Shown here: positions 3,718-48,218 of the stretch, in pieces
How the letters are laid out: every line of letters starts with the position of its first letter
Position numbering within the stretch: the stretch's first letter is position 1
From: an uncultured Ruminococcus sp.
GTDB taxonomy: Bacteria > Bacillota > Clostridia > Oscillospirales > Acutalibacteraceae
DNA length: 48,335 nucleotides
Assembly: GCA_902762615.1 (NCBI GenBank)
Contig: CACWOX010000016.1
Span: 1 to 48,335, forward strand
Direction: 5' to 3'
The notes under the pieces: generated by a model
The model's database searches: none
Told to the model about the DNA's origin: nothing
The model's input: the letters and a program-made list of their open reading frames with translations, nothing else
Program-made: the position numbers and the translations under genes

Positions 3718-3749
3718 TATAATCGCTTCCGTTTGTTGATATTGTATAT

Positions 3750-4741: not shown

Positions 4742-4744
4742 CAT

Positions 4745-5425: not shown

Positions 5426-5437
5426 TGAGGTGAAGCC

Positions 5438-7085: not shown

Positions 7086-7100
7086 AGGAAAGTGAAATCA

Positions 7101-8423: not shown

Positions 8424-8441
8424 GTAAAAGGAGATACTTTC

Positions 8442-9266: not shown

Positions 9267-9320
9267 CGGCATCCATAGTCCGTAAGTATGTTCCATTTAT
9301 TATACGGAGGAATTGATTAA

Positions 9321-10367: not shown

Positions 10368-10372
10368 TTATT

Positions 10373-11317: not shown

Positions 11318-11327
11318 TTAATACGGT

Positions 11328-12677
11328 ATGCACATTATTCTGTTATCCGGAGGCTCAGGGAAAAGACTCTGGCCTCTTTCAAACGACACCCGTTCCAAGC
11401 AGTTTATAAAAATATTCAAAAGACCCGAGAACAGCGCACCTCTCGGCAGGGACGAGGACACGGGCTACGAATCCATGGTGCAGAGAGTCTACCGCCAGAT
11501 CAGAACGGTGGACCCCGACGCCACAGTGACCATAGCCACCTCCAAATCGCAGGTTTCATCTATACACAATCAGCTGGGCGACGGAGTGTCTATCTCGGTG
11601 GAGCCCTGCCGACGCGACACATTTCCGGCTATCGCTTTGGCGACGGCATATCTGCACGACGTGCTCAATGTTCCATCGGAAGAAGCGGTGGTTGTCTGCC
11701 CGGTCGACCCCTATGTGGAGGACAGCTATTTCAAATGCCTTGACGAAATGTGTCACACCGCCGAGCAAAAGGGCGGATTGGTGCTGATGGGAATTAATCC
11801 CACCTTCCCCACCGAAAAATACGGGTATATCCTGCCTCATGAAGACGAGGACGGCAGCTCTCACTTTGAATTCAAGGAGAAGCCGGACGCCGAGACAGCT
11901 AAAAAATATATCGAAGAGGGCTGCCTGTGGAACGGCGGCGTATTTGCCTACAGACTTTCGTATGTGCTTGAGAAGAGCCGTGAGCTGATTGGCACAAGCA
12001 GCTATTACGAGCTTTACGCCAATTACGACAAGCTGAAAAAGATCAGCTTCGATTACGCCGTTGTAGAGAACGAAAGCCATCTCAGCATTATCAGATACTA
12101 CGGCGAATGGAAGGATCTCGGCACATGGAACACTCTCACCGAGGCGATGGAGGAAAGCTCTGTCGGTGACGTGAGAATGAACGACAAGTGCGACAACGTT
12201 CACGCCATCAATGAGATGGGCGTTCCGATGCTGGTCATGGGCTGCCAAAACATTGTCATTTCCGCCTCGCCCGAAGGAATTCTTGTATCCGATATGGAGC
12301 AGAGCAGCTACATCAAGCCCTTTGTGGACGATATCAAGCAGCGCATTATGTTTGCCGAAAAATCATGGGGACGCTACCGCGTGCTCGATGTGGGCGAAAA
12401 CAGCATGACAGTCAAGGTCACACTGAATGCCGGACACAAGATGAATTATCACAGCCATGAAAAGCGGGACGAAATCTGGACGGTGATATCCGGTTCGGGT
12501 CGCACCATCGTTGACGGAATGGAGCAGCCGGTAAAGCCGGGCGACGTAGTGACCATGGCGGCAGGCTGCAAGCATACCGTTATAGCCGGAAACAAGGGAC
12601 TGCAAATGATCGAGGTACAGCTCGGCAAGGACATCAGCGTCTCGGACAAGAAAAAATATGAGTTTCCTTATAAATAA
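11328..12677 (+). CDS. manC: Mannose-1-phosphate guanylyltransferase
   Basis: 449 residues, long form. The N-terminal nucleotidyltransferase domain (signature LLSGGSGKRLWPLSN, then KEKPD) makes GDP-mannose from GTP and mannose-1-phosphate. The last ~110 residues form a cupin related to type II phosphomannose isomerase, with WGRYRVLDVGE, HSHEKRDEIWTVISG and IEVQLG. The isomerase half may be redundant, since a type I isomerase follows directly. GAAAGGTGA precedes the ATG. Together with gmd and fcl it supplies GDP-fucose. No phosphomannomutase is in the window, so that step must come from elsewhere. Confidence 0.94.
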   Translation: MHIILLSGGSGKRLWPLSNDTRSKQFIKIFKRPENSAPLGRDEDTGYESMVQRVYRQIRTVDPDATVTIATSKSQVSSIHNQLGDGVSISVEPCRRDTFPAIALATAYLHDVLNVPSEEAVVVCPVDPYVEDSYFKCLDEMCHTAEQKGGLVLMGINPTFPTEKYGYILPHEDEDGSSHFEFKEKPDAETAKKYIEEGCLWNGGVFAYRLSYVLEKSRELIGTSSYYELYANYDKLKKISFDYAVVENESHLSIIRYYGEWKDLGTWNTLTEAMEESSVGDVRMNDKCDNVHAINEMGVPMLVMGCQNIVISASPEGILVSDMEQSSYIKPFVDDIKQRIMFAEKSWGRYRVLDVGENSMTVKVTLNAGHKMNYHSHEKRDEIWTVISGSGRTIVDGMEQPVKPGDVVTMAAGCKHTVIAGNKGLQMIEVQLGKDISVSDKKKYEFPYK

Positions 12678-12711
12678 CTCCCTTTTCCGGACCACAAAGG
12701 AACAATAGCTT

Positions 12712-13701
12712 ATGAATATTCCATTTATGCTTACACCCGCCGCAAAGAGCTACTTATGGGGCGGAAGTCGGTTAAATGACGATTTCGGAAAAAATATAAA
12801 CCTTGAGCCGCTCGCCGAGACATGGGAATGCAGCACCCATCCCTGCGGTCAGAGCACCGTTGCGGGCGGCGAATTTCAGGGAATGCTGCTGGGTGACGTG
12901 CTGGATATGCACCCGGAGTTTTTAGGCACTCACCCGCTTGAAATTACCCACGGCAGATCAGAGCTGCCAATCCTGATAAAGCTCATCGACGCAAAGCAGG
13001 ATCTTTCGGTGCAGGTGCACCCCGATGACGAATACGCTTTGAAGCATGAGAACTCTCTCGGCAAGACCGAGCTGTGGTATGTACTGGACGCCAAAAGAGG
13101 CGCAAGCCTTGTCTACGGCTTCAATCAGGATATGACCGAGCAGCGTGTCAGGGAAGCACTTGCCGACGAAACCATCGGCAATTATCTCAATTGCGTTCCC
13201 GTCCACAAAAACGACCTTTTCTATATCGAGGCAGGCACCATTCATGCCATTGGAGCAGGTGCGCTGATAGCCGAGATTCAGGAGAACAGCGACATCACCT
13301 ACAGACTTTACGATTATGAACGCGTAGGCAGCGACGGCAAAAAACGCCCGCTGCACATAGATCAGGCAATGAACGTCATCAACCTCAAATCGTCCGATAC
13401 CCCGCGTCAGCCGATGCGCGTGCTGAAATACAAAAACGGAGCTGCCAGCGAACTGCTCAACAGCTGCAAGTATTTTCAGGTAGAAAGACTTTTGCTCAAC
13501 ACGGAGATTAACCGTTCCCTGATGAAATTTCAGACAGGGAGCAACAGCTTCCATGCACTGCTTTGCGTAGACGGCTGCGGCGTACTGTTTGGCGAAGGGG
13601 TGACGCTTCCCTTTTTTAAAGGAGACTGCATTTTTGTGCCGTCGGAAAGCATTCCCATGAAGCTGCACGGAAAGGCTCAGATACTCAACGTGAGCTGCTG
13701 A
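12712..13701 (+). CDS. manA: Mannose-6-phosphate isomerase, class I
   Basis: 329 residues, the short Firmicutes-type enzyme. It interconverts fructose-6-phosphate and mannose-6-phosphate, bringing carbon from glycolysis into the GDP-mannose branch. Zinc and active-site motifs: LIDAKQDLSVQVHPDDEYA, GKTELWYVLDA and AGTIHAIGAG. AAAGGAA lies nine bases before the ATG. It is the last enzyme of the four-gene GDP-fucose cassette. Confidence 0.94.
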   Translation: MNIPFMLTPAAKSYLWGGSRLNDDFGKNINLEPLAETWECSTHPCGQSTVAGGEFQGMLLGDVLDMHPEFLGTHPLEITHGRSELPILIKLIDAKQDLSVQVHPDDEYALKHENSLGKTELWYVLDAKRGASLVYGFNQDMTEQRVREALADETIGNYLNCVPVHKNDLFYIEAGTIHAIGAGALIAEIQENSDITYRLYDYERVGSDGKKRPLHIDQAMNVINLKSSDTPRQPMRVLKYKNGAASELLNSCKYFQVERLLLNTEINRSLMKFQTGSNSFHALLCVDGCGVLFGEGVTLPFFKGDCIFVPSESIPMKLHGKAQILNVSC

Positions 13702-13756
13702 TTTGAGCGATGCATTGCATCGACACACCTATTTTTCTTTACGGCAGGTGATCAAT

Positions 13757-14905
13757 ATGAAAATCAACAGAAAAGAACCGATCTATTTGCTTATACTCCT
13801 TCAATTTGTCAGAATGCTCAATATGGGAGGCTACACCAAATACCTCATTCCGCTTGGCTTGTCCATGCTGTTTGTCATATATGGCAAAGACACGATCAAA
13901 CGCAACAACGCGTTTATTTTGGTTCCGGGTTTTACTTACGTATTTTTCGGATTGATGAGCAGCTTTATTTCGGGCTTTCTGGATTCATCTTCCATAAAAA
14001 CAGGTATATTGCTCACGATATCGTCGGTTTCCGTGCTCTTTCTTTATGAAAAAATCATTGATCATGAAATAGATATATGCAGGGTTCTCTTTCTGGCGTT
14101 TGCAATTTACACCGCCACATTTTTTACGATATCCTTCACCCGCTTTTCGGTCGTCTGGGAATCTACCAGGGCATTTATCTATGGAGCGTTTGTTATTTAT
14201 TTTTTGATAAAAGATGATTGGTTATTCTGCGCGTTTGCCGCTGTTTTTTGCTACATTTCGGATAAAAGAATAGCATTGGTCGGCGTCGTCGCGGCTGTCT
14301 TTTTTGTCATAGCAGTTGCCGTCATTACAAGGGCTTTCCGGATAGATACAAGAAGGATCTTTTTTATCACAGCTATTTTGGGAACAGTGACAGCCTATAC
14401 CATGACATATCTGATTCACACCGGTCTGCTGGTTGGATTCCTTGAGGGACATGGCATATCCTCCACAGGGCGCGATACGATCTGGGGGATTTTCCGGCAG
14501 TTCGCGCAGTTTGACATTGGATTCACCGGACAGGGTCTGGGCTTTGTCACGTCCAAGCTGGAAGAATTCAAAATCAGCATGAGTCATTCATGGTTCAAAA
14601 ATCTCCATTCCGATTTTTATACCGGCTATATTGATCTGGGATTTTTCGGTTTCGGCATCTGGATATTATCCTATTTCTGGGCATACGGCAATCTCACCAA
14701 ACCGGTACAGGACGATGACAGACCGCTGCTGTTTGCGATGGGTGCCATAGTTTATACATTTATCCTTTATCTGACGGACAACGTGCTGATTTACTATGAA
14801 TACTGGTTTCCTGTGAATATAATGCTGCTCGATTTAGTCAACAGACGTCCATGCGATCATAAAGAAAAACTACGGCTGCCAACATCACCGCTCTGTAATT
14901 GTTAA
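13757..14905 (+). CDS. Polytopic membrane protein, O-antigen polymerase/ligase-like
   Basis: 382 residues with about ten hydrophobic segments and a larger polar loop around residues 235-285 (STGRDTIWGIF, GQGLGFVTSKL), the layout of Wzy/WaaL-type proteins. The family shows little conservation, so the call rests on topology, the loop and its place at the end of a glycan operon. It would polymerise lipid-linked repeat units outside the membrane. I start it at the ATG at 13757 with GGCAGGTGA upstream. Another candidate start at 13703 lacks such a site and would add a hydrophilic leader. No flippase gene accompanies it, which is unusual for a complete Wzy-dependent locus. Confidence 0.7.
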   Translation: MKINRKEPIYLLILLQFVRMLNMGGYTKYLIPLGLSMLFVIYGKDTIKRNNAFILVPGFTYVFFGLMSSFISGFLDSSSIKTGILLTISSVSVLFLYEKIIDHEIDICRVLFLAFAIYTATFFTISFTRFSVVWESTRAFIYGAFVIYFLIKDDWLFCAFAAVFCYISDKRIALVGVVAAVFFVIAVAVITRAFRIDTRRIFFITAILGTVTAYTMTYLIHTGLLVGFLEGHGISSTGRDTIWGIFRQFAQFDIGFTGQGLGFVTSKLEEFKISMSHSWFKNLHSDFYTGYIDLGFFGFGIWILSYFWAYGNLTKPVQDDDRPLLFAMGAIVYTFILYLTDNVLIYYEYWFPVNIMLLDLVNRRPCDHKEKLRLPTSPLCNC

Positions 14906-15404: not shown

Positions 15405-15460
15405 AATAACAGCAACGCTGTTGTAATATTTGCACAAAATAATGAATAATATTATTCTGA

Positions 15461-15545
15461 ACAGGCGTCTGTCGCGTGGCAGTCACGCCGGGCCTGCGAG
15501 AGCGGGCAGCAGTTTGAGCTTATGGTAAAGCCTGCGGGACAGACA
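15461..15545 (+). ncRNA. Probable metal-sensing riboswitch aptamer (NiCo/czcD-like four-way junction)
   Basis: The leader folds into a four-helix junction that I can pair by eye. P1 is 15467-15473 with 15538-15544 (GTCTGTC/GACAGAC, perfect). P2 is 15474-15478 with 15484-15488. P3 is 15492-15497 with 15502-15507, capped by a GAGA tetraloop. P4 is 15509-15512 with 15532-15535 plus 15518-15521 with 15528-15531. A terminator directly downstream shares bases 15530-15539 with P4 and P1, so the two folds exclude each other. Four-stem junction aptamers of the NiCo class precede czcD-type CDF exporters in Clostridia (established knowledge). The assignment to that class rests on architecture and context and was not searched. 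Expected logic: metal stabilises the aptamer and turns the exporter on. Confidence 0.6.
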
Positions 15546-15568
15546 AAATCTTCCCGCAGGCATTTTTT
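15530..15568 (+). terminator. Intrinsic terminator, riboswitch expression platform
   Basis: A ten-base-pair perfect stem (15530-15539 with 15552-15561) is followed by ATTTTTT. It is placed between promoter and exporter gene, and its 5' arm is shared with the aptamer, so it should be conditional. Confidence 0.8.
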
Positions 15569-15586
15569 ATACGCGGAGGGTTATAT

Positions 15587-16456
15587 ATGGACAGAAAGAA
15601 AACTGTGGAAAGAATCTCGGCAATCAGCATAGCCGTCAATCTCATTCTCTCGGTGGGAAAGCTGGCGGCAGGTATTCTGGCACATTCCGGCGCGATGGTT
15701 TCCGACGCGGTGCATTCCGCCTCAGATGTATTCAGCACGGTCATCGTGATAATAGGCTTCCGTCTGTCGGCAAAGGACGCAGACAAGGATCACCCCTACG
15801 GTCACGAACGTCTCGAATGTGTGGCAGGCATCATTTTAGCTGTCATTCTCTTTATAACAGGTCTTGGCATAGCAAAATCCTCCTTCGATCTGGTGATATC
15901 CAAGGATTACCTGACCGCGCAGACGCCCGGTATCGCCGCGCTGATCGCCGCGATCGTCTCCATCGCCGCCAAAGAAGGGCTTTACTGGCTAACCATATTC
16001 TACGCCAACAGGATAGACTCCCCCGCGCTCAAAGCCGACGCATGGCACCACAGAAGCGACGCGCTCTCCTCCATCGGCGCAATGATCGGCATTATCGGCG
16101 CTCGAATGGGGCTTTCCATATGCGAACCTGTCGCCAGCCTTGTAATCTGCCTGTTCATCATCAAAGCATCTATAGAAATATTCAGCGACGCTACCAGCAA
16201 GATGACCGACAAGGCGTGCGATGAAGCCACACAAAACTCGATACGCGAGATCATTTTGGCGCAGGACGGCGTCGAATCGCTTGCCGAGCTGAAAACCAGA
16301 ATGTTCGGGGCAAAAATGTATGTTGACGCTGTGATAACGGTGGACGGAAATCTTCCCCTGACGGAAGCTCACGCCATAGCCGAATCGGTGCATGACAGCG
16401 TGGAGCACGCCTTTCCCAACGTAAAGCACTGCATGGTACATGTCGATCCGGCTTGA
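15587..16456 (+). CDS. Cation diffusion facilitator (CDF) metal exporter
   Basis: 289 residues with six predicted membrane helices and a C-terminal cytoplasmic domain of about 85 residues, the standard CDF plan. It exports a divalent metal by exchange with protons. The metal site is His43-x3-Asp47 in helix 2 (SDAVHSASD) and His154-x3-Asp158 in helix 5 (WHHRSD), which fits Zn/Co/Ni/Cd-type rather than the DxxxD pattern of manganese exporters. GGAGGG precedes the ATG. It is a single-gene unit under its own promoter and a conditional terminator, so expression is probably controlled by the leader RNA. Confidence 0.92.
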   Translation: MDRKKTVERISAISIAVNLILSVGKLAAGILAHSGAMVSDAVHSASDVFSTVIVIIGFRLSAKDADKDHPYGHERLECVAGIILAVILFITGLGIAKSSFDLVISKDYLTAQTPGIAALIAAIVSIAAKEGLYWLTIFYANRIDSPALKADAWHHRSDALSSIGAMIGIIGARMGLSICEPVASLVICLFIIKASIEIFSDATSKMTDKACDEATQNSIREIILAQDGVESLAELKTRMFGAKMYVDAVITVDGNLPLTEAHAIAESVHDSVEHAFPNVKHCMVHVDPA

Positions 16457-17414: not shown

Positions 17415-17630
17415 ATGAACGCTGATTTTGAAGCATTGAAAGAATATCTGCCGCTGCTGCTGCCGCTCATCGTGACAGAGCTTGCCCTTTTTGTCTGGGC
17501 GCTGGTGCATGTTCTCACCCACAAGACCTACAGGCACGGCAGCCGGATTCTTTGGCTGATTGTGGTCATTCTGATGATGAATTTCGTGGGTCCGATACTC
17601 TACTTCATTTTTGGGAAAGAGGACGAATGA
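17415..17630 (+). CDS. Small PLDc_N-domain membrane protein
   Basis: 71 residues with two hydrophobic helices (about 13-35 and 47-65). The second ends in NFVGPILYFIFGKEDE, the signature of the PLDc_N domain (the membrane anchor of cardiolipin synthases, also found alone). Function of stand-alone copies is not established. They often accompany ABC transporters in Firmicutes. AGGAGG precedes the ATG, and its stop overlaps the start of the ATPase gene (ATGA), which indicates translational coupling. Confidence 0.85.
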   Translation: MNADFEALKEYLPLLLPLIVTELALFVWALVHVLTHKTYRHGSRILWLIVVILMMNFVGPILYFIFGKEDE

Positions 17631-18535
17631 GTATGGCAGACGTACTTGAAATAAACGGACTGTGCAAGCGCTTCGGCAGCAAACAGGCGCTCGGCGGCGT
17701 GACGCTTTCCGTGCCGGAACGCTGCGTGTTCGGCTTCGTGGGACGCAACGGCGCCGGCAAGACCACCACCATGAAGTCGATCATCGGACTGCTCAAGCCG
17801 GACGGCGGAGAAATCACCGTATGCGGCGAGAGAGTTGCCTACGGCGGCACAAAGACCAACCGCTTCATAGGCTATCTGCCCGACGTGCCGGAATTTTACG
17901 GCTACATGACCGCGCGGGAATATATGTCGCTCTGCGGCAGGGCAGCCGGAATGAAATCATCGGATATCAAAGCCCGCACCGACGAGCTGCTTGAACTGGT
18001 AGGGCTTTCGGACGAAAAGCATCGCATCAAGGGGTATTCGCGCGGCATGAAGCAGCGTCTCGGCATAGCGCAGGCGCTGATCAACCGCCCGAAGCTTCTC
18101 ATCTGCGACGAGCCGACCTCCGCCCTCGATCCGGTCGGACGCAGGGAGATTCTCGACATACTCAAGGACGCGGGAAAGCAGACCTCTGTTTTCTTCTCGA
18201 CCCACATTCTCACCGACGTCGAGCGAATATGCGACCGCGTCGCCTTTCTGGAAGGCGGCAAGGTGGCGCTCAGCGGAGACATTGACGAAATCAGAAAAAA
18301 GCGCTCCGACACGGCGGTGGAAGTGCTGCCGGAAAAACCGTCCGACGCAGCTCTGCTGGCAGAGCAATTTCCTTCCGGCGAGGTGCGAGACGGCTGCTTT
18401 ACGCTCAAGAACGCCTCCGCTCAGGACGCGGAAGATCTGATGAAATGCATACTGGCAAAGCATATATCCGTTGTACGGTTTGAGCGAAGAGAGCCGGATC
18501 TGGAAAATATGTTCATGGAGGTGATCGGAGAATGA
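17627..18535 (+). CDS. ABC transporter ATP-binding protein
   Basis: 302 residues, in the group of drug/bacitracin-type (CcmA-like) ATPases. Walker A GRNGAGKT is at residues 39-46, the signature is YSRGMKQR, Walker B is LLICDEP and the switch His is in FFSTH. A C-terminal extension of about 80 residues is normal for this group. I chose the ATG at 17627, coupled to the preceding gene. Two codons on is a second ATG. With the permease that overlaps its stop, it forms a complete exporter or a bacitracin-type resistance pump. Substrate unknown. Confidence 0.92.
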   Translation: MSMADVLEINGLCKRFGSKQALGGVTLSVPERCVFGFVGRNGAGKTTTMKSIIGLLKPDGGEITVCGERVAYGGTKTNRFIGYLPDVPEFYGYMTAREYMSLCGRAAGMKSSDIKARTDELLELVGLSDEKHRIKGYSRGMKQRLGIAQALINRPKLLICDEPTSALDPVGRREILDILKDAGKQTSVFFSTHILTDVERICDRVAFLEGGKVALSGDIDEIRKKRSDTAVEVLPEKPSDAALLAEQFPSGEVRDGCFTLKNASAQDAEDLMKCILAKHISVVRFERREPDLENMFMEVIGE

Positions 18536-19320
18536 TTATCCTTCCGTTCTTCAAAAATTATTTCACTTTCATGGGCAAGGAGCTGCTGGAGCTTCGCCGC
18601 AGCGGAAGGCTTCTTTTGCTGACAGTACTCTTCACGGCTTTCGGGGTGATGAATCCCGCCATGGCAAAGCTCACGCCGTGGCTTCTTCAGACAATGTCCG
18701 ATTCGCTGGAGGCTTCCGGCATTACCGTCACGGAATACACCGTCACGGCGATGGAGTCATGGGTGCAGTTTTTCAAAAATATGCCTATGGCAATGCTGGT
18801 TGCGCTGGTGATGTTCGGCGGGATTTTCACATCGGAATATTCAAAGGGCACGCTCATTCCGCTGCTTGCCAAGGGCTTGCGGAGAAACGCCGTTTCCGCG
18901 GCAAAAACAAGCATCATGCTGCTTGTTTGGAGCATCGGTTATTTTTTAAGTTATGGCATTACATTTGTCTACAGCGACTATTATTGGGACAATTCCGCCG
19001 TAAAGAATTATGCCTTTGCCGCCTTCGGACTGTGGCTCTTCGGCGTGCTTCTGCTGTGCTGCGTCACCTTCTTCTCGTCCTTTGCAAACTCTGCGGCGCA
19101 GGTGCTTCTCGGCGTTGGCGCGGTGTATATTGCCCTCCATCTGCTGGGTATGGTCGGCACGGTCAGCGAATATCTGCCGTCCTATCTCACCCAAAGCGGC
19201 GAATTGCTCACCGGACAGGCTAATCCGTCGGATTACACCTCGGCGGTATGCGTAACGGCAGTATCTTCTCTTGTCCTGCTGATCGCTTCCGTTCCGATTA
19301 CCTCCAAAAGACGGGTATAA
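18532..19320 (+). CDS. ABC-2-type transporter permease
   Basis: 262 residues with about six membrane helices. Its opening (FMGKELLELRRSGR) and the FTSEYSKGTLIPLLAKGL segment are typical of ABC-2 permeases, where a cytoplasmic coupling helix follows helix 2. The start overlaps the ATPase stop by four bases. Homodimerisation with two copies of the ATPase is expected. It is the last gene before a bidirectional terminator. Confidence 0.88.
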   Translation: MIILPFFKNYFTFMGKELLELRRSGRLLLLTVLFTAFGVMNPAMAKLTPWLLQTMSDSLEASGITVTEYTVTAMESWVQFFKNMPMAMLVALVMFGGIFTSEYSKGTLIPLLAKGLRRNAVSAAKTSIMLLVWSIGYFLSYGITFVYSDYYWDNSAVKNYAFAAFGLWLFGVLLLCCVTFFSSFANSAAQVLLGVGAVYIALHLLGMVGTVSEYLPSYLTQSGELLTGQANPSDYTSAVCVTAVSSLVLLIASVPITSKRRV

Positions 19321-35558: not shown

Positions 35559-36119
35559 ATAGAGGACAGGGATATTGTCAATCTGTATCTGGCGAGGAAT
35601 GACGCTGCCATCGCCCGCACAAAGGAAAAATACGGCAGCCGGCTGCTGCATATGGCATATGAAATCACCGGCGACGCGCAGGAGGCGGAGGAATGTGAAA
35701 ACGACGCCTATCTCAAGGCGTGGAATTCCATCCCGCCCCACGAACCGCACGAATATCTGTTTCCGTTTCTGACCAGACTGCTGCGCAACTCGGCGCTCAA
35801 TTGCTGCCGAAGCAAAAGCAGCGGGAAAAGAAAGGCATTGCTCCAGGAATTGAACGACGAGCTGAGCAACACCATTCCGTCCCGCGAAGGTGTGGAGGAA
35901 TCGGTGAGCGAACATCAGCTGGCGGAAGCCATCAACACATTTCTCTCAGCGCTGCCGGAGGAAACGCGCCGCGTATTTATCAGAAGATACTGGTATATGG
36001 ACTCTATTGAGCGCATTGCCAAAGGATATGGCATTTCAAATGCAAAGGTTAAATCCATGCTGTTCCGATGCCGAAACAAATTACGCGACTATTTAGAGAA
36101 AGAAGGCTATCACATATGA
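35559..36119 (+). CDS. Sigma-70 (ECF-like) RNA polymerase sigma factor, apparent ATA start
   Basis: 186 residues. Region 2 spans about 10-80 (AEECENDAYLKAWNSIPPHEP) and region 4 about 125-180 (LPEETRRVFIRRYWYMDSIERIAKGYG). Relatives begin with MEDREIV-type sequence. Here the same segment reads (I)EDRDIVNLYLARND, starting at ATA 35559. AAAGGTGG is nine bases upstream and an in-frame TGA stands three codons before. The first in-frame ATG (35652) would cut away the start of region 2. Either ATA initiates, or the gene has lost its start. Its stop overlaps the next gene, a membrane protein, as usual for sigma/anti-sigma pairs. Confidence 0.78.
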   Translation: MEDRDIVNLYLARNDAAIARTKEKYGSRLLHMAYEITGDAQEAEECENDAYLKAWNSIPPHEPHEYLFPFLTRLLRNSALNCCRSKSSGKRKALLQELNDELSNTIPSREGVEESVSEHQLAEAINTFLSALPEETRRVFIRRYWYMDSIERIAKGYGISNAKVKSMLFRCRNKLRDYLEKEGYHI

Positions 36120-36904
36120 AAAACAACACCGATAAATTAGAGCTTATGAGCATGATTGACACGAAGTATGTGGAAGACGCGGCTTATCCCGCAGCGCAGC
36201 AGAAAGAAAACAGCTTCTATTCAAACAAATGGTGGAAGGTCGCCGTTTCCGCGGCTGCCGTGCTGGCGCTCAGCCTGACCTGCCTGCGGTTCTATCCCCA
36301 GATCAAAGCGTTTGCCGGCGACTTCTTCAACAGTGCGACTGTCTTTGACGACGGCAACAGATTTGAAGGGCAAATGGGCATGGTGCCGATCAACGAAGTT
36401 TCGGTCTCGGACTTGCAGAAGGAATACTATACGCTTAACGAGGTGGAAGAGCTTCTCGGCGTCAATCTGCTGCAAAGTCCTCTTGCGAGCAGTACGCTTT
36501 ATCCCTGTATCCATATAGAGGGCTGGCTGGACGGCGGCATAGTCGACATATCCTCTTTAGCCTATTATCTGCATAATTGCAGCACGACTCCCCGTCACCC
36601 GGACGATGTGGGCAATCCCGTTTATACTCATGCCGATGCAGACGACGCTTACCATATCAGCTATGATGCGGAGTTTTTGTGCAATGGAAAATACAACGGC
36701 GACCAGCATCATTACGATAACGCCCAGCTTGTGGAAAAATACACCACTTCCAATGGGCTGCACGCGGCTATATTCTATTGCGTCAAGTCCTATAACGCCG
36801 TCATCTATCACAACAACATCCGTTATGAATTTGAAATGAATGCATACCGCGGCTCAGGCGATGTCAATGAGCTTAAAGCATTTCTCGATACGCTGAGCGA
36901 CTGA
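36116..36904 (+). CDS. Putative membrane-anchored anti-sigma-type protein
   Basis: 262 residues. About 38 cytoplasmic residues come first, then one membrane helix (about 40-58), then an extracytoplasmic domain of roughly 200 residues that I do not recognise. The layout and the four-base overlap with the sigma gene suggest it holds or senses for that sigma factor. No zinc-binding HxxxCxxC anti-sigma motif is present in the cytoplasmic part, so the mode of binding is unclear. The start at 36116 overlaps the sigma stop and follows AAAGAAGG. Confidence 0.72.
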   Translation: MKNNTDKLELMSMIDTKYVEDAAYPAAQQKENSFYSNKWWKVAVSAAAVLALSLTCLRFYPQIKAFAGDFFNSATVFDDGNRFEGQMGMVPINEVSVSDLQKEYYTLNEVEELLGVNLLQSPLASSTLYPCIHIEGWLDGGIVDISSLAYYLHNCSTTPRHPDDVGNPVYTHADADDAYHISYDAEFLCNGKYNGDQHHYDNAQLVEKYTTSNGLHAAIFYCVKSYNAVIYHNNIRYEFEMNAYRGSGDVNELKAFLDTLSD

Positions 36905-37146: not shown

Positions 37147-40100
37147 ATGAAAAAGCCCCAACGCAAAAGGACCTTGAGCACGCTGATTATTTCAGCGCTG
37201 CTTGTGACCGCATTGTCCTGCTGCACGGCTGTATTTTTCTCGGCAAACGCCGCTGAAGATACCAGCCAGCCAACCGCTGTCACTCAGTCCGACGCCATTG
37301 ATGAGACAGCAAAAGATGACGACCCCGGCGGAAATGTCGATGAAGCCGACAAAGACACCGACGTCACCCAAGACGAATTGGAATGCCATACCGTTACCGT
37401 TTCGTCAAAGGATGTCAGCGATACCTCCCACTACCGCTTTAAACCCAACGCCGTTTACAACGGCAGCTTCAGAAGCGAACTGCTCGCTAATGAGGTAACG
37501 ATCTACGATGCTCTGGTACAGCATTTTATCACTGACAGCAGCAATGAGACGCTGCATGTGGACATCGAATCCATGGGCTATACCACATCGGATCAGGCGG
37601 CTGTCGGCGATATGGTTCTGTCGGCATACGCCGCGTTTACCACCGATTACCCAATGTCTTACTGGATGGACGGCTACGGCAGCGGCATATGGTCGGGTGA
37701 CGGGAAAATTGTCGCGGTGGACATTGAGCCGTCCGAGCGCTATGACGGCGCTTACAGCGAGATGGCTACCATCAAGAGCGGCATTACTTCCGCTGTCAAC
37801 ACCATCAGTGCCAACAGAGCATCTTCATCACGCTATGACACTGTAAAGGCGATTCACGATTACATCTGCAACACCATGTCATACGATTATGACGCCGCGG
37901 AAACCGGGAATTATCCTGAGGCTCACTGCATCGCGCCTTTGTTCGGCGGCGGCAGCAGAGGTCATCAGTTCGTTTGTGAAGGCTACGCCAATTCCTTCAA
38001 GCTGCTCTGCGACAAATTCGGTGTTCCTGCCGTTCACGTCAAGGGTGACGCAGGCGGCGCTCACAGCTGGAACTATGTGCAGATGGAAAACGGCAGCTGG
38101 TACGGCGTTGACGCAACATGGGACGATCAGGCATCATTACTCTATACGTACTTCCTGGTAGGTACAAACAGCGTCGTCTTCAACGGCAACACCTTCGGTC
38201 AGGACCATGTTCCCCAGAATCAGGTGATGGTTCAAAGTACCGTTAACCCGCTGGCATATCCTGTTCTTTCCGATGAAGCCTATACGCCCGGCGACTGGTT
38301 TGATTTCTGGGGCGAAAGTGCTCAGGATAACCGTGAAGTATCCGGCAACGTGGAGTTCCAGTGGAAATTCGTCGGCGAACAGTCCATAACAAACGTTGTC
38401 GATGTTTATTTAGACAATAATCATCTGGCTACGATTGACATTGATGCAAACGGTTATGCCTCTTACTGGATGGATACCACTGATCTGGAAAACGGCACAC
38501 ACACTGTCAAAGCTGTTTTCACCAAGTCCGGCAGCGACAGCATTACTGTCACAAGAAACATCGTTGTTTCCGGCGCCTCTTTTGGATTCCTGTACATGGA
38601 TGAACCAATTCCTACACTTCGTTATATTCACAGCATTTACATGAAGCAGGTGAATTGCGGAAGCGCTCTCGACTGCGAGGTTCAGTTCTTTGTTGACGAT
38701 AACTTCATGGAGACACTTTATTGCGACAGTGAAGGCGTCTTCGAATATGATTTGGATACCTATGCATTAAGCGACGGCGAACACGTCTTGCGAGCTGTTT
38801 TGAACTTCGGCGATAATCAGACACGGGTCGCTGAAAAGACCGTAGCTGTCGCAAACCCCACGCTTAAAGTACTTGACCCGGAAGATGGTTCTACTGTTTC
38901 CGGCACAGTCAGGTTTGAAATGGTGCAGTATAATTTCGACTCATCTGAGCCCTGCCAAGTAGATATCAGCTTAGACAATGAATATTGTACTACACTGGAA
39001 AGCAGCGAGGGTGAGATCTTCTACTACGAGGTTGACACTACTCAGCTGACCAACGAATATCACTATTTAGAGCTTCATCTCCAATCTCCGTCCGGAGAAG
39101 AATACTGGTCCGGTGTAAGCTTCATTGTTGAAAATTACATTGATCCGGCATCTATAACTTTAAATCGTGAATCTGTTTCCATTCATCTGGGAGAAACCAC
39201 CAAGCTGCTGGCGTCGTTAGAGCCATTCAACGCTACCGGTGAGATCACCTGGTTCTCTGAGGATGAAAGCATTGCTACAGTAAATGAAAAAGGTCTGGTT
39301 ACATCTGTTAATGTCGGTGAGACAGTGATCCACGCTTGTTCGGGAGAGATCAACGCAGCATGTACCGTAAGGGTAACATCTCCGGTCAAATATCCTGTAA
39401 CACTCAGCAAATCATGGGTTTCTCTGTTCATGACAAATAACAAGTACAACCCGACTGCCACTCTGAAGGCAACCAAACCGAAATCCATCAAGAAGGTAAT
39501 CTGGTATTCCGACGACACCGACGTTGTAGATGTCAGTCAGTCAGGCGTTATTACCGCGCTGTCATCAGGTACTGCCAACATTTATTGCACGTCAGAAGAC
39601 GGTGAGTACATCAGCGCACCCTGCAAGGTGACTGTCGGTGAGTTCTACGTTTACAAGAATGAGGATAGCCCATACTTCGACACTTTGAATATTCCTATCG
39701 GCGGCAATGGCTACATGGGAGCATACGCCCATAATATTCCGGGATATGATGACGAAGAAGCTCAAAGAAAAATAGCATGGAAATCCAGCAATACCAAAAT
39801 CGCAAAGGTCGGCTCGAACGGCTATGATGAATGCGAAGTCAGCGGTATCAGCAAAGGAACGGCAACCGTCACCGCAAGTATCGGTGTAGAGTGCTCGGCA
39901 ACCTATAAGGTGACTGTATTTGCTTCTGCCACTTCTTTGAAGCTCAACACCCATTCTGCATCGATTTATGTAAACAAACCCCTTACTTTGAAGGCAACGC
40001 AGAACAAGGGCGCAAATGATCCGCTTTATTGGGTATGTGACGATCCCGATATCGCATACGTCACAGAAAAAGGCGTAGTCTATGGCTTCAATCAGGGAAC

Positions 40101-43100
40101 AACCACAATTAGGGTATATTCCTACGACGGAAGTGCATATGACGAAGCAACCATTACCGTACGTACGCCTGCAAACAGTATTGATTGGTATCCGTCAATT
40201 TACGGCTTAAATCCCCGCTCTGCGGTAAAGCGCGCGGTTGCTTTGAAAGACGTACTTGATCTCAAAGTAGAGATATACGATCCTTACATGTGCAACGACA
40301 CTATTACATGGACAACAAGCAACAAGTCTGTTGTTGGAATCCACAGCATCGTCAATGACGGTAAATGCGCACGCCTTGTGGGTCTCAAAAAGGGCAGCGC
40401 AACCATCACCGCAAAAACCGGCAGCGGCAAGAAAATCAGTTACCTTGTAACCGTTGTTACTCAGGCTGCTGACAGCATCACGCTCAATAAGCATGAAGCC
40501 AATCTCTACATTCGTTCATCGCTTTCTCTGACAGCCAAAACCACCCCAAAGGGAAACAACGATGTTATTACATGGGTTTCCACCAATCCGTATGTTGCAA
40601 CCGTAGACGAGAACGGAAAGGTGACAGCCGTTAGTCAGGGAGAAACTGAAATATACGCCATATCCGATTCCTCAGGCGAAGTACGTGACTATGCAACCAT
40701 TCACGTACTCACCAAGGCAAACAGTCTGACATGGGGTACGCTTCCCGAAAATATTACTCCTGCCAAGACCGTCAAATACGGTGTTCCGGTCGGCGGAACC
40801 AAGGAATTGTCTGCGGTTATCACCTCACCGGAAGGCTGCAACGACATCATCAACTGGACAACGAGCAGTAAGGCAGTCGTTGCCATCATTGGCAATCCGT
40901 TAAACACAAGCGGCGTAACCGTTCAGGGTTTGAAGAAGGGAACCGCCACCATCACAGCCAAAACAGGCAGCGGAAAATCGGTCACCTATCAGATTACAGT
41001 TGTTCCCAGCAGCGCACAGCAATTGGTAATAAACAAGCATGAAGTCAGTATTTACAAGGGTTCGTCACTGAGTCTGTCGGCTCAGGTACTTCCCAAGGGC
41101 TGCAATGACGTAGTGCTTTGGAAATCCAGCAATTCCAACATTGCCAGAGTGGATGAGAACGGCAAGGTCACAGCTGTTGAACAGGGAGACGCTGTGATAA
41201 CCGCTTACTCGGCAACATCGGGTGATGTTTTAGACACAGCAGCAGTTCAAGTGCGTACAAAGGCAGTCAGCATAACATGGAGCGACATTCCCGTTAATAT
41301 GAAGCCTGCCAAGACAGTCAAGCACAGCATTCCGGTCACTGGGACCAAGGAATTGGGCGTAATTATTACATCTCCGGAGGACTGCAACGACTCCGTCAAC
41401 TGGTCAACAAACAATAAATCAGTTGTTGCCATTACAAGCAGCGCATCAAATGTTCGCACCATAACCGTTCAGGGTCTGAAGAAGGGAACCGCTACCATCA
41501 CTGCCAAGTCGGGCAGCGGAAAGGCAATCACTTATCAGATAACGGTCGTTCCCGAAGGCGCACAGCAGTTTGTATTAAACAAGCATGAAGCCAATGTTTA
41601 CAAGGGTTCATCGCTTGCCCTGTCAGCTAAAGTACTCCCCAAGGGCAGCAATGATGTGGTGATCTGGAAGTCCTCCAATCCGGATGTGGCAACGGTTGAC
41701 GAGAACGGAAAGGTAACCGCCGTTGGACAGGGCGACGCTGTCATAACAGCTTATTCTGAAACATCAGACGTTCCTAATGACACGGCAACAGTTCACGTGC
41801 TCACTAAGGCTACCAAATTCACATGGGTTAATATTCCTGACGGAATGATGCCTAAGTCAGCCGTAAAATACGGCGTTCTGGTTGGACAGAGCAAAGAGCT
41901 TTACTCTGTCATAACAGCTCCTGAAAACTGCAACGACACTATCACCTGGACAACCAGCAACAAGTCAATCGTTGCAATAAACGAGTATCTTGACAACAAC
42001 TCCGGCGTTCGTATTACGGCATTGAAGAAGGGTACCGCAACCATTACCGCAAAAACCGGCAGCGGCTGCAAGATTATCTACACAATCAACGCCGTCAGCG
42101 AATCCGCTCAGAGCATTGTTCCCTCCAAGAATTCCGTTTCGCTCTATCAGGGCAGTGCCGTAAGTATTTCCACAAAAATCACCCCAAAAACCAGCAACGA
42201 TACCTTACTCTGGAAGTCGGAAAATCCGAGCATTGCCTCTGTTGACGAAACAGGTAAGATCACCGCTAATTACTACGGCACGACAGTGATCAAGGTTTAT
42301 TCCTCTACTTCGGAAGAAGTGATGGAACTTATTTCTGTTAATGTTATATCAAGGGCTCAGTTTGTTGATATCAAGGCAACTGAAATTACACTTGTTCAGG
42401 GCAGATCAGTTCAGGTAGACGCTGTTGTATTGCCTGAAAGGTATCATGATAATCTGACATGGTCATCAAGCAGCAAAGGAGTCATTTCGATTACACCTGT
42501 TCCTGAAAGTAGCTCAGCCATCATATCCGGTCTTAAACCCGGCACTACCAAACTTACGGTTAAGACAGGAAGCGGCAAGAGCAGAACCATTCCCGTGACT
42601 ATCAAAAAAGGTCCTGTTTACGATTCCAACAATGTTAACCTCACTCTCTGGGGTGAGGAATCCGATCAGCAATTCCTCACTCAGACAGCCAATGAATGGG
42701 CAAGCGCATACAAAGCTGAACATCCCAACTATAAATCGGTTAAGGTCAGTGTTTCCATCGTTGGTGCGGATGTAGCCACTTATGCTCTCGATGATCCTTC
42801 TGTAGTTGGTGCGGATGTCTTTACGACAGCCGCTGATACTTGCCTTGGTCTTATTGAATCAGGAAAAATCTTAGAGCTTCCCGAAACAGTCGTAAACGAA
42901 ACAGAATCTCTTGTCGGCAGCGCCTTAATGGAGTCAGCTTGCTACCAGGGCAGATATTACGGCATACCCAGTCGTTTTGAAGCTGCAAATGTTCTGTATT
43001 ATAACAAGAACCTGTACACGCAGGAAGAGATTACCAATCTCAATACCATGCTCGCCAAAGACCTTAACGGCACCTCCAACCTGATGATGGATCTTAATTC

Positions 43101-43857
43101 AGTTTGGTACGGCATGAATTGGTTCAGCACTGCGGGAGCAAGACTTTACACCAATTACGACAAGTCAATCAATACAATGAATAACCCCGAAGTAGTGAAA
43201 ATGATGAAATGGCTCGCCGAACGTCACAGAGAAGGAACTATAGTCGGTTGTGCAGATGACTCTTTGGCAGCTCAGGCAATGGGTGACGGCACGGCAGCCG
43301 CAGTAATAGCTGGTCCGTGGTGTGAAAACGAATTCAGAGACAGAGTCGGCGATGATCTTGGTATCGCTGAACTGCCCTATATTACGGTTCCCAACTCCGT
43401 TACCAACCAGCATATGTACTGCTTCACCAATTCCAAAATCACTGCGGTGAATGCACAGAGCTTTTATCCTGAAGCCGCGCTTTCACTTGCTCAGTATCTT
43501 ACCAATGAAAGCAACCAGCTCAGAAGATTTGAGATGACAGGTGCTGTTCCTACTGCAGAATCGCTTGTTTCCAACAGTGCCGTTTTGTCTGATCCTCTCG
43601 CCAAAGCTCAGGTTGCTCAGAAGAACTATACTGTATTTTCAAACGCATACTTGGGCAGAGCTAATTACTGGGGTTTGTGCGAAACTTTCCTCGCCGATTT
43701 GCTCGGTCGTACATTGAGTGATGAAACCATAGAGATGCTTTATGCCGACGGATTCACCGAAGAGCAAATAATGGATATAATGACGCCACATTTATCGGAT
43801 GAAGAAATTGCACAGAAACTCAATGAGATAGTCGATGAAATGCAGAATAATTTCTGA
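37147..43857 (+). CDS. Giant secreted protein: transglutaminase-like domain, Ig-like/BIG2 stalk, C-terminal solute-binding domain
   Basis: 2,236 residues. Signal peptide 1-35 (cut after SANA, no clear lipobox). The transglutaminase-like domain at about 200-345 has triad Cys277 (FVCEGYA), His306 (AHSWNYV) and Asp322 (GVDATWDD). Three Ig-like domains follow at about 375-664 (YLDNNHLATI, NGTHTVKAVF). Thirteen BIG2-like domains run from 665 to 1818, with an exact two-domain period of 182 residues in 1011-1738. The last ~407 residues (1830-2236) resemble family 1 sugar-binding proteins of ABC importers: NLTLWGEESDQQF, YYGIPSRFEAANVLYYNK, AAAVIAGPW. No LPXTG, SLH, dockerin or C-terminal helix is seen, so anchoring is unknown. 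AAAGGAAGAG precedes the ATG. No ABC permease gene is nearby. Confidence 0.85.
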   Translation: MKKPQRKRTLSTLIISALLVTALSCCTAVFFSANAAEDTSQPTAVTQSDAIDETAKDDDPGGNVDEADKDTDVTQDELECHTVTVSSKDVSDTSHYRFKPNAVYNGSFRSELLANEVTIYDALVQHFITDSSNETLHVDIESMGYTTSDQAAVGDMVLSAYAAFTTDYPMSYWMDGYGSGIWSGDGKIVAVDIEPSERYDGAYSEMATIKSGITSAVNTISANRASSSRYDTVKAIHDYICNTMSYDYDAAETGNYPEAHCIAPLFGGGSRGHQFVCEGYANSFKLLCDKFGVPAVHVKGDAGGAHSWNYVQMENGSWYGVDATWDDQASLLYTYFLVGTNSVVFNGNTFGQDHVPQNQVMVQSTVNPLAYPVLSDEAYTPGDWFDFWGESAQDNREVSGNVEFQWKFVGEQSITNVVDVYLDNNHLATIDIDANGYASYWMDTTDLENGTHTVKAVFTKSGSDSITVTRNIVVSGASFGFLYMDEPIPTLRYIHSIYMKQVNCGSALDCEVQFFVDDNFMETLYCDSEGVFEYDLDTYALSDGEHVLRAVLNFGDNQTRVAEKTVAVANPTLKVLDPEDGSTVSGTVRFEMVQYNFDSSEPCQVDISLDNEYCTTLESSEGEIFYYEVDTTQLTNEYHYLELHLQSPSGEEYWSGVSFIVENYIDPASITLNRESVSIHLGETTKLLASLEPFNATGEITWFSEDESIATVNEKGLVTSVNVGETVIHACSGEINAACTVRVTSPVKYPVTLSKSWVSLFMTNNKYNPTATLKATKPKSIKKVIWYSDDTDVVDVSQSGVITALSSGTANIYCTSEDGEYISAPCKVTVGEFYVYKNEDSPYFDTLNIPIGGNGYMGAYAHNIPGYDDEEAQRKIAWKSSNTKIAKVGSNGYDECEVSGISKGTATVTASIGVECSATYKVTVFASATSLKLNTHSASIYVNKPLTLKATQNKGANDPLYWVCDDPDIAYVTEKGVVYGFNQGTTTIRVYSYDGSAYDEATITVRTPANSIDWYPSIYGLNPRSAVKRAVALKDVLDLKVEIYDPYMCNDTITWTTSNKSVVGIHSIVNDGKCARLVGLKKGSATITAKTGSGKKISYLVTVVTQAADSITLNKHEANLYIRSSLSLTAKTTPKGNNDVITWVSTNPYVATVDENGKVTAVSQGETEIYAISDSSGEVRDYATIHVLTKANSLTWGTLPENITPAKTVKYGVPVGGTKELSAVITSPEGCNDIINWTTSSKAVVAIIGNPLNTSGVTVQGLKKGTATITAKTGSGKSVTYQITVVPSSAQQLVINKHEVSIYKGSSLSLSAQVLPKGCNDVVLWKSSNSNIARVDENGKVTAVEQGDAVITAYSATSGDVLDTAAVQVRTKAVSITWSDIPVNMKPAKTVKHSIPVTGTKELGVIITSPEDCNDSVNWSTNNKSVVAITSSASNVRTITVQGLKKGTATITAKSGSGKAITYQITVVPEGAQQFVLNKHEANVYKGSSLALSAKVLPKGSNDVVIWKSSNPDVATVDENGKVTAVGQGDAVITAYSETSDVPNDTATVHVLTKATKFTWVNIPDGMMPKSAVKYGVLVGQSKELYSVITAPENCNDTITWTTSNKSIVAINEYLDNNSGVRITALKKGTATITAKTGSGCKIIYTINAVSESAQSIVPSKNSVSLYQGSAVSISTKITPKTSNDTLLWKSENPSIASVDETGKITANYYGTTVIKVYSSTSEEVMELISVNVISRAQFVDIKATEITLVQGRSVQVDAVVLPERYHDNLTWSSSSKGVISITPVPESSSAIISGLKPGTTKLTVKTGSGKSRTIPVTIKKGPVYDSNNVNLTLWGEESDQQFLTQTANEWASAYKAEHPNYKSVKVSVSIVGADVATYALDDPSVVGADVFTTAADTCLGLIESGKILELPETVVNETESLVGSALMESACYQGRYYGIPSRFEAANVLYYNKNLYTQEEITNLNTMLAKDLNGTSNLMMDLNSVWYGMNWFSTAGARLYTNYDKSINTMNNPEVVKMMKWLAERHREGTIVGCADDSLAAQAMGDGTAAAVIAGPWCENEFRDRVGDDLGIAELPYITVPNSVTNQHMYCFTNSKITAVNAQSFYPEAALSLAQYLTNESNQLRRFEMTGAVPTAESLVSNSAVLSDPLAKAQVAQKNYTVFSNAYLGRANYWGLCETFLADLLGRTLSDETIEMLYADGFTEEQIMDIMTPHLSDEEIAQKLNEIVDEMQNNF
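40177..42360 (+). repeat. Four tandem 546-base units (paired BIG2 domains)
   Basis: Unit borders fall at 40177, 40723, 41269, 41815 and 42361, each exactly 546 bases apart. Each unit encodes one longer BIG2 domain with the CND-WTTS-LKKGTATITAKTGSGK type core and one shorter domain with NKHEA, KGSSLSL and VDENGKVTAV. The copies have diverged but keep length without a single indel. Confidence 0.9.
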
Positions 43858-44036: not shown

Positions 44037-44398
44037 ATGAGCAGAATAAACGGTCGCGTGCTTTGCTCCAAAGGGCATTGCATGAGGAAAGTCCGAGCAT
44101 CGCAGGGCAGGATAACGGCTAACGGCCGCCGAGGGTGACCTCAGGAAAAGTGCAACAGAGATATACCGCCCTTTTCGTGGATTTTCACGGAAAGTGGTAA
44201 GGGTGGAAAGGCGAGGTAAGAGCTCACCGATCATTTTGGAGACAAGATGATCCTGTAAACTCTATCCGATGCAACATCGTGGAGGGACATGATGCGGCTG
44301 CCCGTCGCGTCCCGTGGAGATGGCTGGAGCTGTGCAGCAATGTACAGTCGAGATAGATGACCGTTCACGACAGAACTCGGCTTACAGTTCTGCTCATT
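44037..44398 (+). ncRNA. rnpB: RNase P RNA, bacterial type A
   Basis: Catalytic RNA that trims tRNA 5' ends. Conserved region I GAGGAAAGTCC starts at 44083. Region V ACAGAACTCGGCTTA lies near the 3' end. P1 pairs ATGAGCAGAA near the 5' end with TTCTGCTCAT near the 3' end. The internal GGATAACGGCTAACGGCCG and about 360-base length fit type A, which is usual in Clostridia, while Bacilli have type B. Confidence 0.96.
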
Positions 44399-44410
44399 AT
44401 TTTATATTTA

Positions 44411-45782: not shown

Positions 45783-48218
45783 TTACATGACATAGACCGT
45801 TGCAATGCCGGAATACACCTTATTGCCTGTGGCGTCGGTGACAAGGCAGCGCACCTGCATTTCGTCCCATGAGCTGTTCGCCGTCGCGGTGGTGGAAGCG
45901 GTGGTTCTGCCGTTCCACAATGTCCATGAGCCGCCTGCCTTCTTGAAGTACCACTGGTATTTCAAGCCGGTGCCGGTTGCCTTGACGGTGAAGGTGGTAT
46001 TTTTGCCGGCGGAAACTACAACATTCTGCGAATTGGCGGTTATCTTGAGCTGTGCGGCAATGGTAACTGTCGCTGCCGATGAGGTAGTGCTGCCGTTGCT
46101 GTCGGTGACCACACAACGAACCTGCATTTTGTTCCATGTGTCATTGGATGTTGCCGTTGTGGTCGCTGTGGTGTGATTGTTCCACAATGTCCACGAGGTC
46201 TGACCGGACTTCTTGATGTACCACTGATATTTAAGAGTGCCGGTTCCTGTTGCCTTGACAGTGAAGGAGACGTTCTTGCCGGAATACACCGTGACATTGG
46301 CCGGCTGCTGCGTGATGACAGGAGCCTTTTTCACGGTTATGGCAGCGGAATTGGAGACTGCCGTGCTTCCCGCCGAATCGGTGACGATGCAGTACACCTT
46401 CATGCCGTTCCATGTGGAGTTGGCTGTGGCGGTGGTGGTTGCGGTGGTGTGACCGTTCCACTTGGTCCAGCTGCCGCCGGATTTCTTATAGTACCACTGA
46501 TATTTCAGCACGCCCGTACCGGTTGCCTTGACGGTGAAGGAAACTGTCTTGCCGTCAGAGGTTGTGACGCTGACGGGGTGTGAAGTGATAGTGAGAGCCT
46601 TCTTGATATAAACTGTGGAGGCTGATGATGTGACCGAGCTGTTGCTGTCCTTAACAACGCAACGCACCTGCATTCCGTCCCATGTGGAATTGGCGACTGC
46701 CGATGTGGAAGCGGTGTTTTTATTGTTCCACGCGTTCCATGCGGTCTGACCTGACTTCTTGTAATACCACTGATATTTCAGCGTACCGGTGCCTGTCGCC
46801 TTGAGGGAGAATTTAGCGGTAGCGCCGTCAGCTACGACGACCACGCTGTCGGGCTGTGTGGTAATGGCAGCTTTTTCAGTAACCTTGAGCGTAAGGATAT
46901 TGGAGCTGACGGAATTGCCTGCGCTGTTTTTGACAATGCACTTGACCTGCATGCCGTTCCATGACGTATTGGCGGTTGCGGTGGTGGATGCGGTGGTTCT
47001 GCCGTTCCACGCGCTCCATGCGGTCTGTCCGGACTTCTTGTAATACCACTGGTAGGTAAGACCCGTGCCGCTCGCGGTTGCCTTAAATGTGACGGAATCG
47101 CCGGCGTAAAGAGTCGTTGAAGGAGACGCCGCAGCAGATACGGTGATGGTGGCAATTGTCACTGTGGCAGCACTGGAAGTGACGGATTTGCCTGCCGTGT
47201 CCTTGACAACGCATCGCACCTGCATTTTGTTCCACGTATCACCGGCTGTAGCGGTGGTGGTGGCAGTGGTGTGACCGTTCCATTTTGACCATGCAGTCTG
47301 ACCGTCCTTCTTGAAGTACCACTGATATGTCAGCGTGCCGGCTCCGGTCGCTTTGACAGTAAATTTTGCTGTATCGCCAACTTTCACAGCAATATTGTCG
47401 GGGTTCTGTGTTATTATCAGCTTTGGGGTAACGCTGAGAGGGATTACGTTAGAGCTGACGGAATTACCCGCGCTGTTTTTGAGGATACAGCGAACCTGCA
47501 TTCCGTCCCATGTGAGGTTGACCGTCGCAGTAGTGGAAGCCGTAGTTCTGCTGCCCCAGTTGTTCCACGCAGTCTGACCTGATTTCTTGTACTGCCACTG
47601 GTAGGTAAAACCCGAACCCGACGCGTTGACGGTAAATGTAACGATATCTCCATCAGTCAGAGAGTTTGAAGGAGTTACTGTTATTGAACCTGTCGGCATT
47701 TCCTCTGAATACTCATAAATAAATTTCGGAGCATTCAGCAGGTAGGAATTGCCATCAGTATTGATGCCGTCCTCTTTAAGGCTATTCCACCTTGTTTTTG
47801 AACCCGTAAATTTGACAGTGTTGAGAGAAGAACAGTTTGAAAATGCATTTGCCTCGACGGTAATTAACGCCTTTGGCAAAACAACGGTTGTCAATGCACT
47901 GCATCCTCCAAATGCGGAGGACTCTATGTCGGTAACATGTTTCCCTACCGTCACCGTTTTAAGCCCGAAACAACCATAGAATGAATCCGTCTGAATGACA
48001 TTGACATTATCGGGAATGACAATTTGCGTAAGACTCGTACAGCCTTCAAAAGTCCCCTGATATCTATCATTACGCCAATAATCATAATTGGTTTTCATCT
48101 CTGTCAGTTTGGAGCCGGCTTCAAATGTGACACTTTTAAGGGTTTTCAATCCGTAAAAAGAACTGCCTATGGAGGTCACGGATGCGGGAATGGTAATGCT
48201 AACCAATCCACTGTCCAA
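45783..48218 (-). pseudogene. BspA-like leucine-rich-repeat and Ig-repeat surface protein, 5' end missing
   Basis: 811 codons from a TTG at 48218. The first ~165 residues are BspA-type leucine-rich repeats (VSITIPASVTSIGSSFYG, LTTVVLPKALITVEANAF). Seven Ig-like domains of about 91 residues follow, each with YQWYYKKSGQTAW and GMQVRCVVKDSAGNSVSS-type motifs. The reading frame continues upstream in recognisable repeat sequence (YTSIGDYAFLD) to about 48241 and then meets TAATAA at 48266-48261. There is no signal peptide, ribosome binding site or plausible start. Such proteins are normally secreted, so this copy looks truncated at its 5' end, probably by an insertion. It ends without a sorting signal. 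Confidence 0.75.
45786..47723 (-). repeat. Seven tandem Ig-like repeats of about 270 bases
   Basis: Each unit encodes one Ig-like domain with a YQW core and a WNG-TTA-TTATA segment. Similarity between units is high, so recombination could alter copy number. Confidence 0.85.

Follow-up and report, generated by a model that had tools for sequence, protein, structure and literature searches.

Solute-binding proteins (SBPs) are normally treated as importer parts, which raises the question of what one is doing at the C-terminal end of a long secreted protein that begins with a transglutaminase (TGase)-like domain and continues as a stalk of immunoglobulin (Ig)-like domains. The gene lies in a stretch of 48,335 nucleotides from an uncultured Ruminococcus sp. 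(assembly GCA_902762615.1, contig CACWOX010000016.1), hereafter the window. Its open reading frame (ORF; 2,236 residues) has no internal stops, and matches to Transglut_core (E 9.7e-8, 32.7 bits against a cut-off of 23), Big_2 (11 stretches, E 6.6e-95) and SBP_bac_8 (residues 1851-2153, E 4.7e-22, 79.5 bits against a cut-off of 27) each exceed the Pfam thresholds. A single Big_7 stretch (residues 393-456) stays below its own cut-off, and counting the repeating motifs by eye gave 13 Big_2-like and three Big_7-like domains, 16 altogether. The N-terminus resembles a signal peptide, with no good lipobox in the sequence, and no LPXTG motif, SLH domain or C-terminal membrane helix was visible to the same inspection by eye, so that the term surface arm is an assumption. 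These results bear out the preliminary description of this DNA, which had placed a TGase-like domain, about 16 Ig-like domains and an SBP in one ORF without a visible wall or membrane anchor.

Table 1. Features of the TGase-Ig-SBP gene and its flanks (positions in the window) and of other SBP fusions (positions in their loci).
Feature	Location	Strand	Basis
Whole gene: secreted TGase-like / about 16 Ig-like / SBP protein, 2,236 aa	37147..43857	+	ORF, Pfam
Signal-peptide-like N-terminus, residues 1-35 (...FFSANA/AED)	37147..37251	+	Sequence by eye
Transglut_core domain, residues 225-323	37819..38115	+	Pfam, alignment, solved relative 9crn
Triad codons C277, H306, D322	37975-37977, 38062-38064, 38110-38112	+	Sequence position, alignment
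About 3 Big_7-like Ig domains, residues ~381-670	38287..39156	+	One sub-cut-off Pfam Big_7 stretch; number by eye
About 13 Big_2-type Ig domains, residues ~671-1822	39157..42612	+	Pfam, 11 stretches; number by eye
Solute-binding (MalE-derived) domain, residues 1823-2236	42613..43854	+	Pfam, AlphaFold2, Foldseek, alignments
Pocket aromatics W1987, W2058, W2175	43105-43107, 43318-43320, 43669-43671	+	Alignments
RNase P RNA (rnpB), directly downstream of the gene	44038..44400	+	
Upstream pair: sigma-70 region 4 protein (35652-36119) and one-hydrophobic-segment protein (36068-36904)	35652..36904	+	
TIR_2-TM-SBP, 659 aa, G003	L014 207-2186 (apparently same contig as L088, JAQXFQ010000151.1)		Pfam; helix by hydropathy
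TIR_2-TM-SBP, 628 aa, G002	L074 4943-6829 (same protein as L015)		Pfam; helix by eye
Dockerin_1 + SBP_bac_8, 694 aa, G574 (another family of the order)	L110 2316-4400 (minus strand)		
N-terminal hydrophobic helix (by eye) + SBP_bac_8, 1,104 aa, G574	L110 4440-7754 (minus strand)		
SBP_bac_8 + CHASE, GAF, HisKA, HATPase, receiver (hybrid histidine kinase with SBP sensor), G433	L171 4-4219 (minus strand)		

The catalytic triad described earlier for the TGase-like domain is at the positions given, and all 15 aligned rows share Cys277, His306 and Asp322 (the window protein and 14 genus proteins chosen by BLAST at E ≤ 1e-10 from fetched loci, most weaker matches being left out). The protein thus combines the profile and the triad of the transglutaminase-like superfamily with the tandem Big_2 domains of bacterial Ig-like stalk proteins. 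Among solved chains, 9crn comes closest to the TGase-like part (E 2.2e-14 for the sequence alone, 4.9e-24 with a profile); it is entered under no more specific name than transglutaminase-like domain protein, and assignment to a named enzyme was rejected; no paper found by an open-licence literature search names the 9crn code. A model of the TGase-like part from its single sequence was unusable (pLDDT 33). An anti-phage role was also rejected, PADLOC giving no match at E ≤ 0.01. Group III transglutaminase-type adhesin-like proteins of gut methanogens are secreted surface proteins that, in the available part of their description, likewise pair a TGase-like domain with an Ig-type (Big) stalk (PMC11532034). 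They differ in being archaeal and in having the TGase domain C-terminal, beside pseudomurein-binding repeats and with a membrane helix; that part of the text does not mention an SBP, whereas the window protein carries one.

Modelling of residues 1819-2236 with AlphaFold2, using 15 relatives from related loci as input, gave a type I SBP fold (pLDDT 91.5, pTM 0.88). Together with the SBP_bac_8 match, this upholds the earlier view that an entire solute-binding domain ends the protein, and the reservation that it might not fold as one falls away. The top Foldseek matches of the model are maltodextrin-binding proteins, the best being SPs0871 of S. pyogenes (9kha; TM 0.88 by target length), MalE1 of L. 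casei (5mk9/5m28) and EUR_01830 of E. rectale (4ua8), and sequence searches concur. The NCBIfam scores for MalE (42.2 bits against a cut-off of 291) and for the galactooligosaccharide protein GanS (102.5 against 700) are both far below threshold. The permease domain BPD_transp_1 was found in none of the 37 window ORFs scanned with Pfam, a subset of the ORFs of the window, in agreement with the preliminary description, and a role for the SBP in a local transporter was rejected on this ground. An ABC exporter-type pair lies at 17552-19320.

To place the domain, we searched 18 genomes of the genus with it and obtained 15 matches in 12 genomes (E ≤ 0.001), comprising 12 standalone proteins and three fusions (the window protein and two TIR proteins). 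The standalone proteins have lipoprotein-like starts in the ORFs read. Where flanks were long enough to read (L075 is cut by a contig end), Pfam identified carbohydrate phosphorylase and 4-alpha-glucanotransferase genes upstream of the standalone gene in L068 and L077; downstream of it, two permease genes with BPD_transp_1 follow in L068, L076 and L077. By predicted gene content, the standalone MalE-type genes of the genus sit in a maltodextrin-use operon. A 38-row tree places the window SBP as sister to five standalone genus proteins (support 100/97); support is 98/96 for a set of 13 rows (the window protein, 10 standalones and the two TIR fusions) and 100/100 for a set of 15 that includes all 12 standalones. 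The MalE encoded in the same genome as the window protein falls outside the 13-row set and is 32% identical to the window SBP. On this phylogeny, the window SBP descends from the MalE-type maltodextrin-binding protein of the genus; its branch is long (1.14, the median for end branches being 0.17), and the support values therefore overstate how precisely it is placed. The 12 closer of 19 named relative loci belong to uncultured Clostridia, Clostridiales, Ruminococcus or Bacillota assemblies, several of them labelled goat stomach or RUG, and a contig scan with the window protein as single query gave 18 pattern matches and no relative.

Ligand binding by SPs0871 is described as depending critically on Y184, W256 and W380, and, in the available part of that report, the W256A variant was set against the wild type by ITC and W256 was termed essential (PMC12130509). 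Alignment equates these residues with W1987, W2058 and W2175, respectively (chain-to-paper numbering offset of 26, counted from alignments), so that all three pocket aromatics are present in the window SBP; the pairing of W1987 with Y184 comes from profile and MAFFT alignments, the plain phmmer alignment differing by one residue. Their counterparts in MBP we take to be Y155, W230 and W340, in role as in position, and D1897 and E1945 align with MBP D65 and E111. Of 20 columns that are presumably ligand contacts in MBP, four are invariant in the 12 standalone proteins (glutamate at K42, glutamine at R66, W230 and W340), and the window SBP keeps two of them, both tryptophans, with alanine and threonine replacing the glutamate and the glutamine. 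Over this assumed set of 20 columns, identity to MBP is 5 for the window SBP, 6 for the MalE of the same genome and 4 for L003. Over its whole length, the domain keeps 39 of the 49 positions invariant in the 12 standalones and 100 of the 174 invariant in the five-member sister clade. Judged from these residues, a sugar-binding cleft is likely in the window SBP, and the two pocket-column changes make its present ligand less certain. Like SPs0871, MalE1 and EUR_01830, then, the domain has the MalE fold, family profile and pocket aromatics, and its ancestry lies in genus MalE. Unlike them, it is the C-terminal end of an enzyme arm and not a lipoprotein or free periplasmic protein, has no permease found beside its gene, and is altered at two conserved pocket columns.

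The arm itself also occurs without the SBP. Homologues in G016 and G012 (52% and 50% identity, respectively, over residues 1-665) carry the TGase-like domain, triad included, and a Big_2 Ig stalk, but stop 1-2 residues past the end of the Ig part of the window protein and lack an SBP; no C-terminal anchor was seen in them either. In the window protein, the SBP is joined in frame just after the last Ig domain, without the lipoprotein signal of MalE. In G012, the homologue (ORF 2623-7674) immediately precedes rnpB (7835-8201), an arrangement shared with the window, although only the rnpB side is common to both and the remaining neighbours differ; in G016, the arm gene and rnpB are on separate contigs. 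Since neither homologue extends into the SBP and rnpB follows the arm gene in G012 too, the SBP is best read as a C-terminal addition. The simplest reading of the sequences would be that it was gained in the window lineage, although it may instead have been lost in both relatives.

Among 15 rnpB regions fetched from other genomes of the genus, the arm gene is beside rnpB in one, that of G012. Five others (G002, G005, G006, G010 and G016) have Rnf genes followed by rnpB and a NUDIX gene, without the arm gene, the last Rnf gene being hidden by a longer antisense ORF in most of them; RnfA identity is 92-96% in four of the five, and G002 gave only a 32% match to an Rnf paralogue. The remaining nine regions show other genes or contig ends. 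With Rnf genes upstream and rnpB and NUDIX downstream conserved in the genus, the window gene thus stands between genus-conserved flanks. Codon usage in the SBP part correlates better with the last Ig block (0.74) than with the middle one (0.57) or the window genes (0.58); against window genes, the MalE of the same genome reaches 0.51 and the TGase part 0.88. The sigma-70 region 4 gene, which overlaps the hydrophobic-segment gene, lies with it and the TGase gene between rnfB and rnpB. Further along the window, positions 45783-48218 (minus strand) encode an 811-residue protein with BspA-type leucine-rich repeats and Ig domains, the C-terminus of which has a close relative near rnpB in G010 (81% over 84 aa). 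Elsewhere, the window contains an extracellular polysaccharide cluster (3971-14905), with glycosyltransferases, a UDP-sugar dehydrogenase, a GDP-mannose dehydratase, mannose-phosphate genes and an O-antigen ligase-like protein, and, at 15447-16456, a NiCo riboswitch just 5' of a cation efflux transporter gene.

The order TGase-Ig-SBP was seen in one genome only, that of the window. We searched for MalE-like matches in open frames of at least 600 residues, in overlapping samples drawn from larger groups and, in the large searches, with at most four candidates scored per genome. Such frames held 3 of 15 matches in the genus (18 genomes), 2 of 50 in the family (398 genomes, E ≤ 1e-25; both among the genus ones), 3 of 61 in the order (394 genomes, E ≤ 1e-15; the window and two of G574), 1 of 57 in the class (391 genomes, E ≤ 1e-20) and 1 of 35 in the phylum (398 genomes, E ≤ 1e-20), the window protein being the only one in the last two. 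A search of 80 relatives took in the wider SBP_bac_8 family; among the matches listed, nine long frames were read, seven of them with a Pfam scan (L171-L177) and two by reading alone (L178 and L179, long SBP frames).

These searches uncovered several other SBP fusions (Table 1). The two TIR proteins are laid out like receptors, with TIR_2 at the N-terminus, then a single hydrophobic helix, and a MalE-related SBP at the C-terminus; their TIR part is matched in 17 of the 18 genus genomes (L119-L138), in proteins with differing C-terminal parts, several of which have a hydrophobic helix. The two L110 fusions are adjacent and have similar extra sequence at their C-terminal ends. Five long proteins with an SBP (L172-L176) include three matches to CBM_35, only that of L174 above the cut-off, and L177 is a permease-SBP fusion. 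Pfam found neither Transglut_core nor Big_2 in the fusions from L014, L074, L110, L171 and L177. All place an SBP module in a larger architecture, as in the window protein, and differ from it in the partner, which is a signalling domain, dockerin, kinase or permease. The TGase-Ig-SBP order thus turned up once in these searches, while SBP fusion as such recurs; the architecture looks new, the capture of an SBP does not. In the open-licence literature, titles and abstract starts among the best matches listed contained no TGase-SBP or TIR-SBP protein, in line with the preliminary statement that no named system has this architecture. That statement needs qualifying in that SBPs fused to non-transport modules (TIR-TM-SBP, dockerin-SBP, SBP-histidine kinase) recur. 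Another alpha-glucoside-binding protein is reported in the available part of PMC13311272.

The reading that we favour, with a probability of about 0.45, is that the captured MalE would act as an alpha-glucan-binding head on the TGase-Ig arm; its ligand and the activity of the enzyme we infer from sequence and model. The MalE-type domain captured onto the C-terminus of the secreted arm would no longer serve an importer and would work like a carbohydrate-binding module, clamping the ends of alpha-1,4-glucans (starch, glycogen, maltodextrin or an alpha-glucan coat), with domain closure on the sugar providing the binding and the Ig stalk the reach. By clamping glucan ends, the arm would hold its N-terminal papain/transglutaminase-fold enzyme close to the glycan, which is the presumed benefit, and the enzyme might there crosslink or trim surface proteins. 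Counting against such a head are the two changed pocket residues, the long branch, the higher score of GanS than of MalE, the single genome and the lack of a visible anchor. The earlier proposal that the protein captures or displays a glycan hence gains from ancestry, fold and pocket aromatics, narrows to a maltodextrin-type origin, and is weakened by the two altered pocket columns.

Of the rival explanations, the likeliest, although in our view somewhat improbable, is that the SBP fold was kept and its ligand changed, to another oligosaccharide (e.g. a galacto-oligosaccharide), to a cell-wall or capsule glycan, or to none, the domain then being an adhesive or structural cap. The loss of two of the four invariant pocket-column residues, the long branch, the retention of just 100 of 174 sister-clade positions and the choice of GanS as best NCBIfam model, far under its cut-off, all point in this direction, whereas the three stacking aromatics and the D65 and E111 equivalents are kept and the closest solved structures bind maltodextrin. 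Considerably less probable is that the SBP still docks on a MalFG-type permease, which would serve as a hidden anchor or receive sugar from, or be regulated by, the protein. MalE, from which the SBP derives, docks on such permeases, a MalE locus with two BPD_transp_1 permeases is present in the same genome, and no other anchor is visible. However, the nearest relatives of the SBP are MalEs of other species, the divergent MalE of its own genome lying outside their set, and the SBP-less homologues show no C-terminal anchor either.

A chimeric join in a metagenome-type contig, or an annotation artefact, comes last and appears very improbable. The fusion is present in one genome, a second not having been found, and the codon usage of the SBP is less like that of the window genes than is that of the TGase part. 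Yet the SBP resembles the last Ig block in codon usage, and the MalE of the same genome is no closer to the window genes; the join is in frame right at the Ig boundary, with no MalE signal peptide; genus-conserved genes flank both sides; and the SBP falls in a clade of the same genus. The possibility of an artefact, raised in the preliminary description, is therefore weakened by flanks, codon usage and clade, and not removed, given the exact fusion in one genome only.

A broader and more tentative idea is that MalE may be a portable glycan-reading head in the genus, captured into at least two architectures, the TGase-Ig arm and the TIR membrane receptors. The latter would resemble Toll receptors and sense sugar, their TIR domain being separated by a single membrane helix from a MalE-related domain across the membrane. 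The tryptophans at the positions of MBP W230 and W340 are retained in the window SBP and the TIR fusions alike, other pocket residues having drifted.

The capture of MalE by the secreted arm can be traced here, sister species having homologues that lack the SBP, and through it an uptake domain would have become a surface binding module; the locus also allows the targeting of a TGase-like enzyme to a glycan to be tested. The related TIR fusions suggest that the MalE-type module has also been turned into a sensor. For annotators, the locus is a warning that an SBP match need not mean transport.
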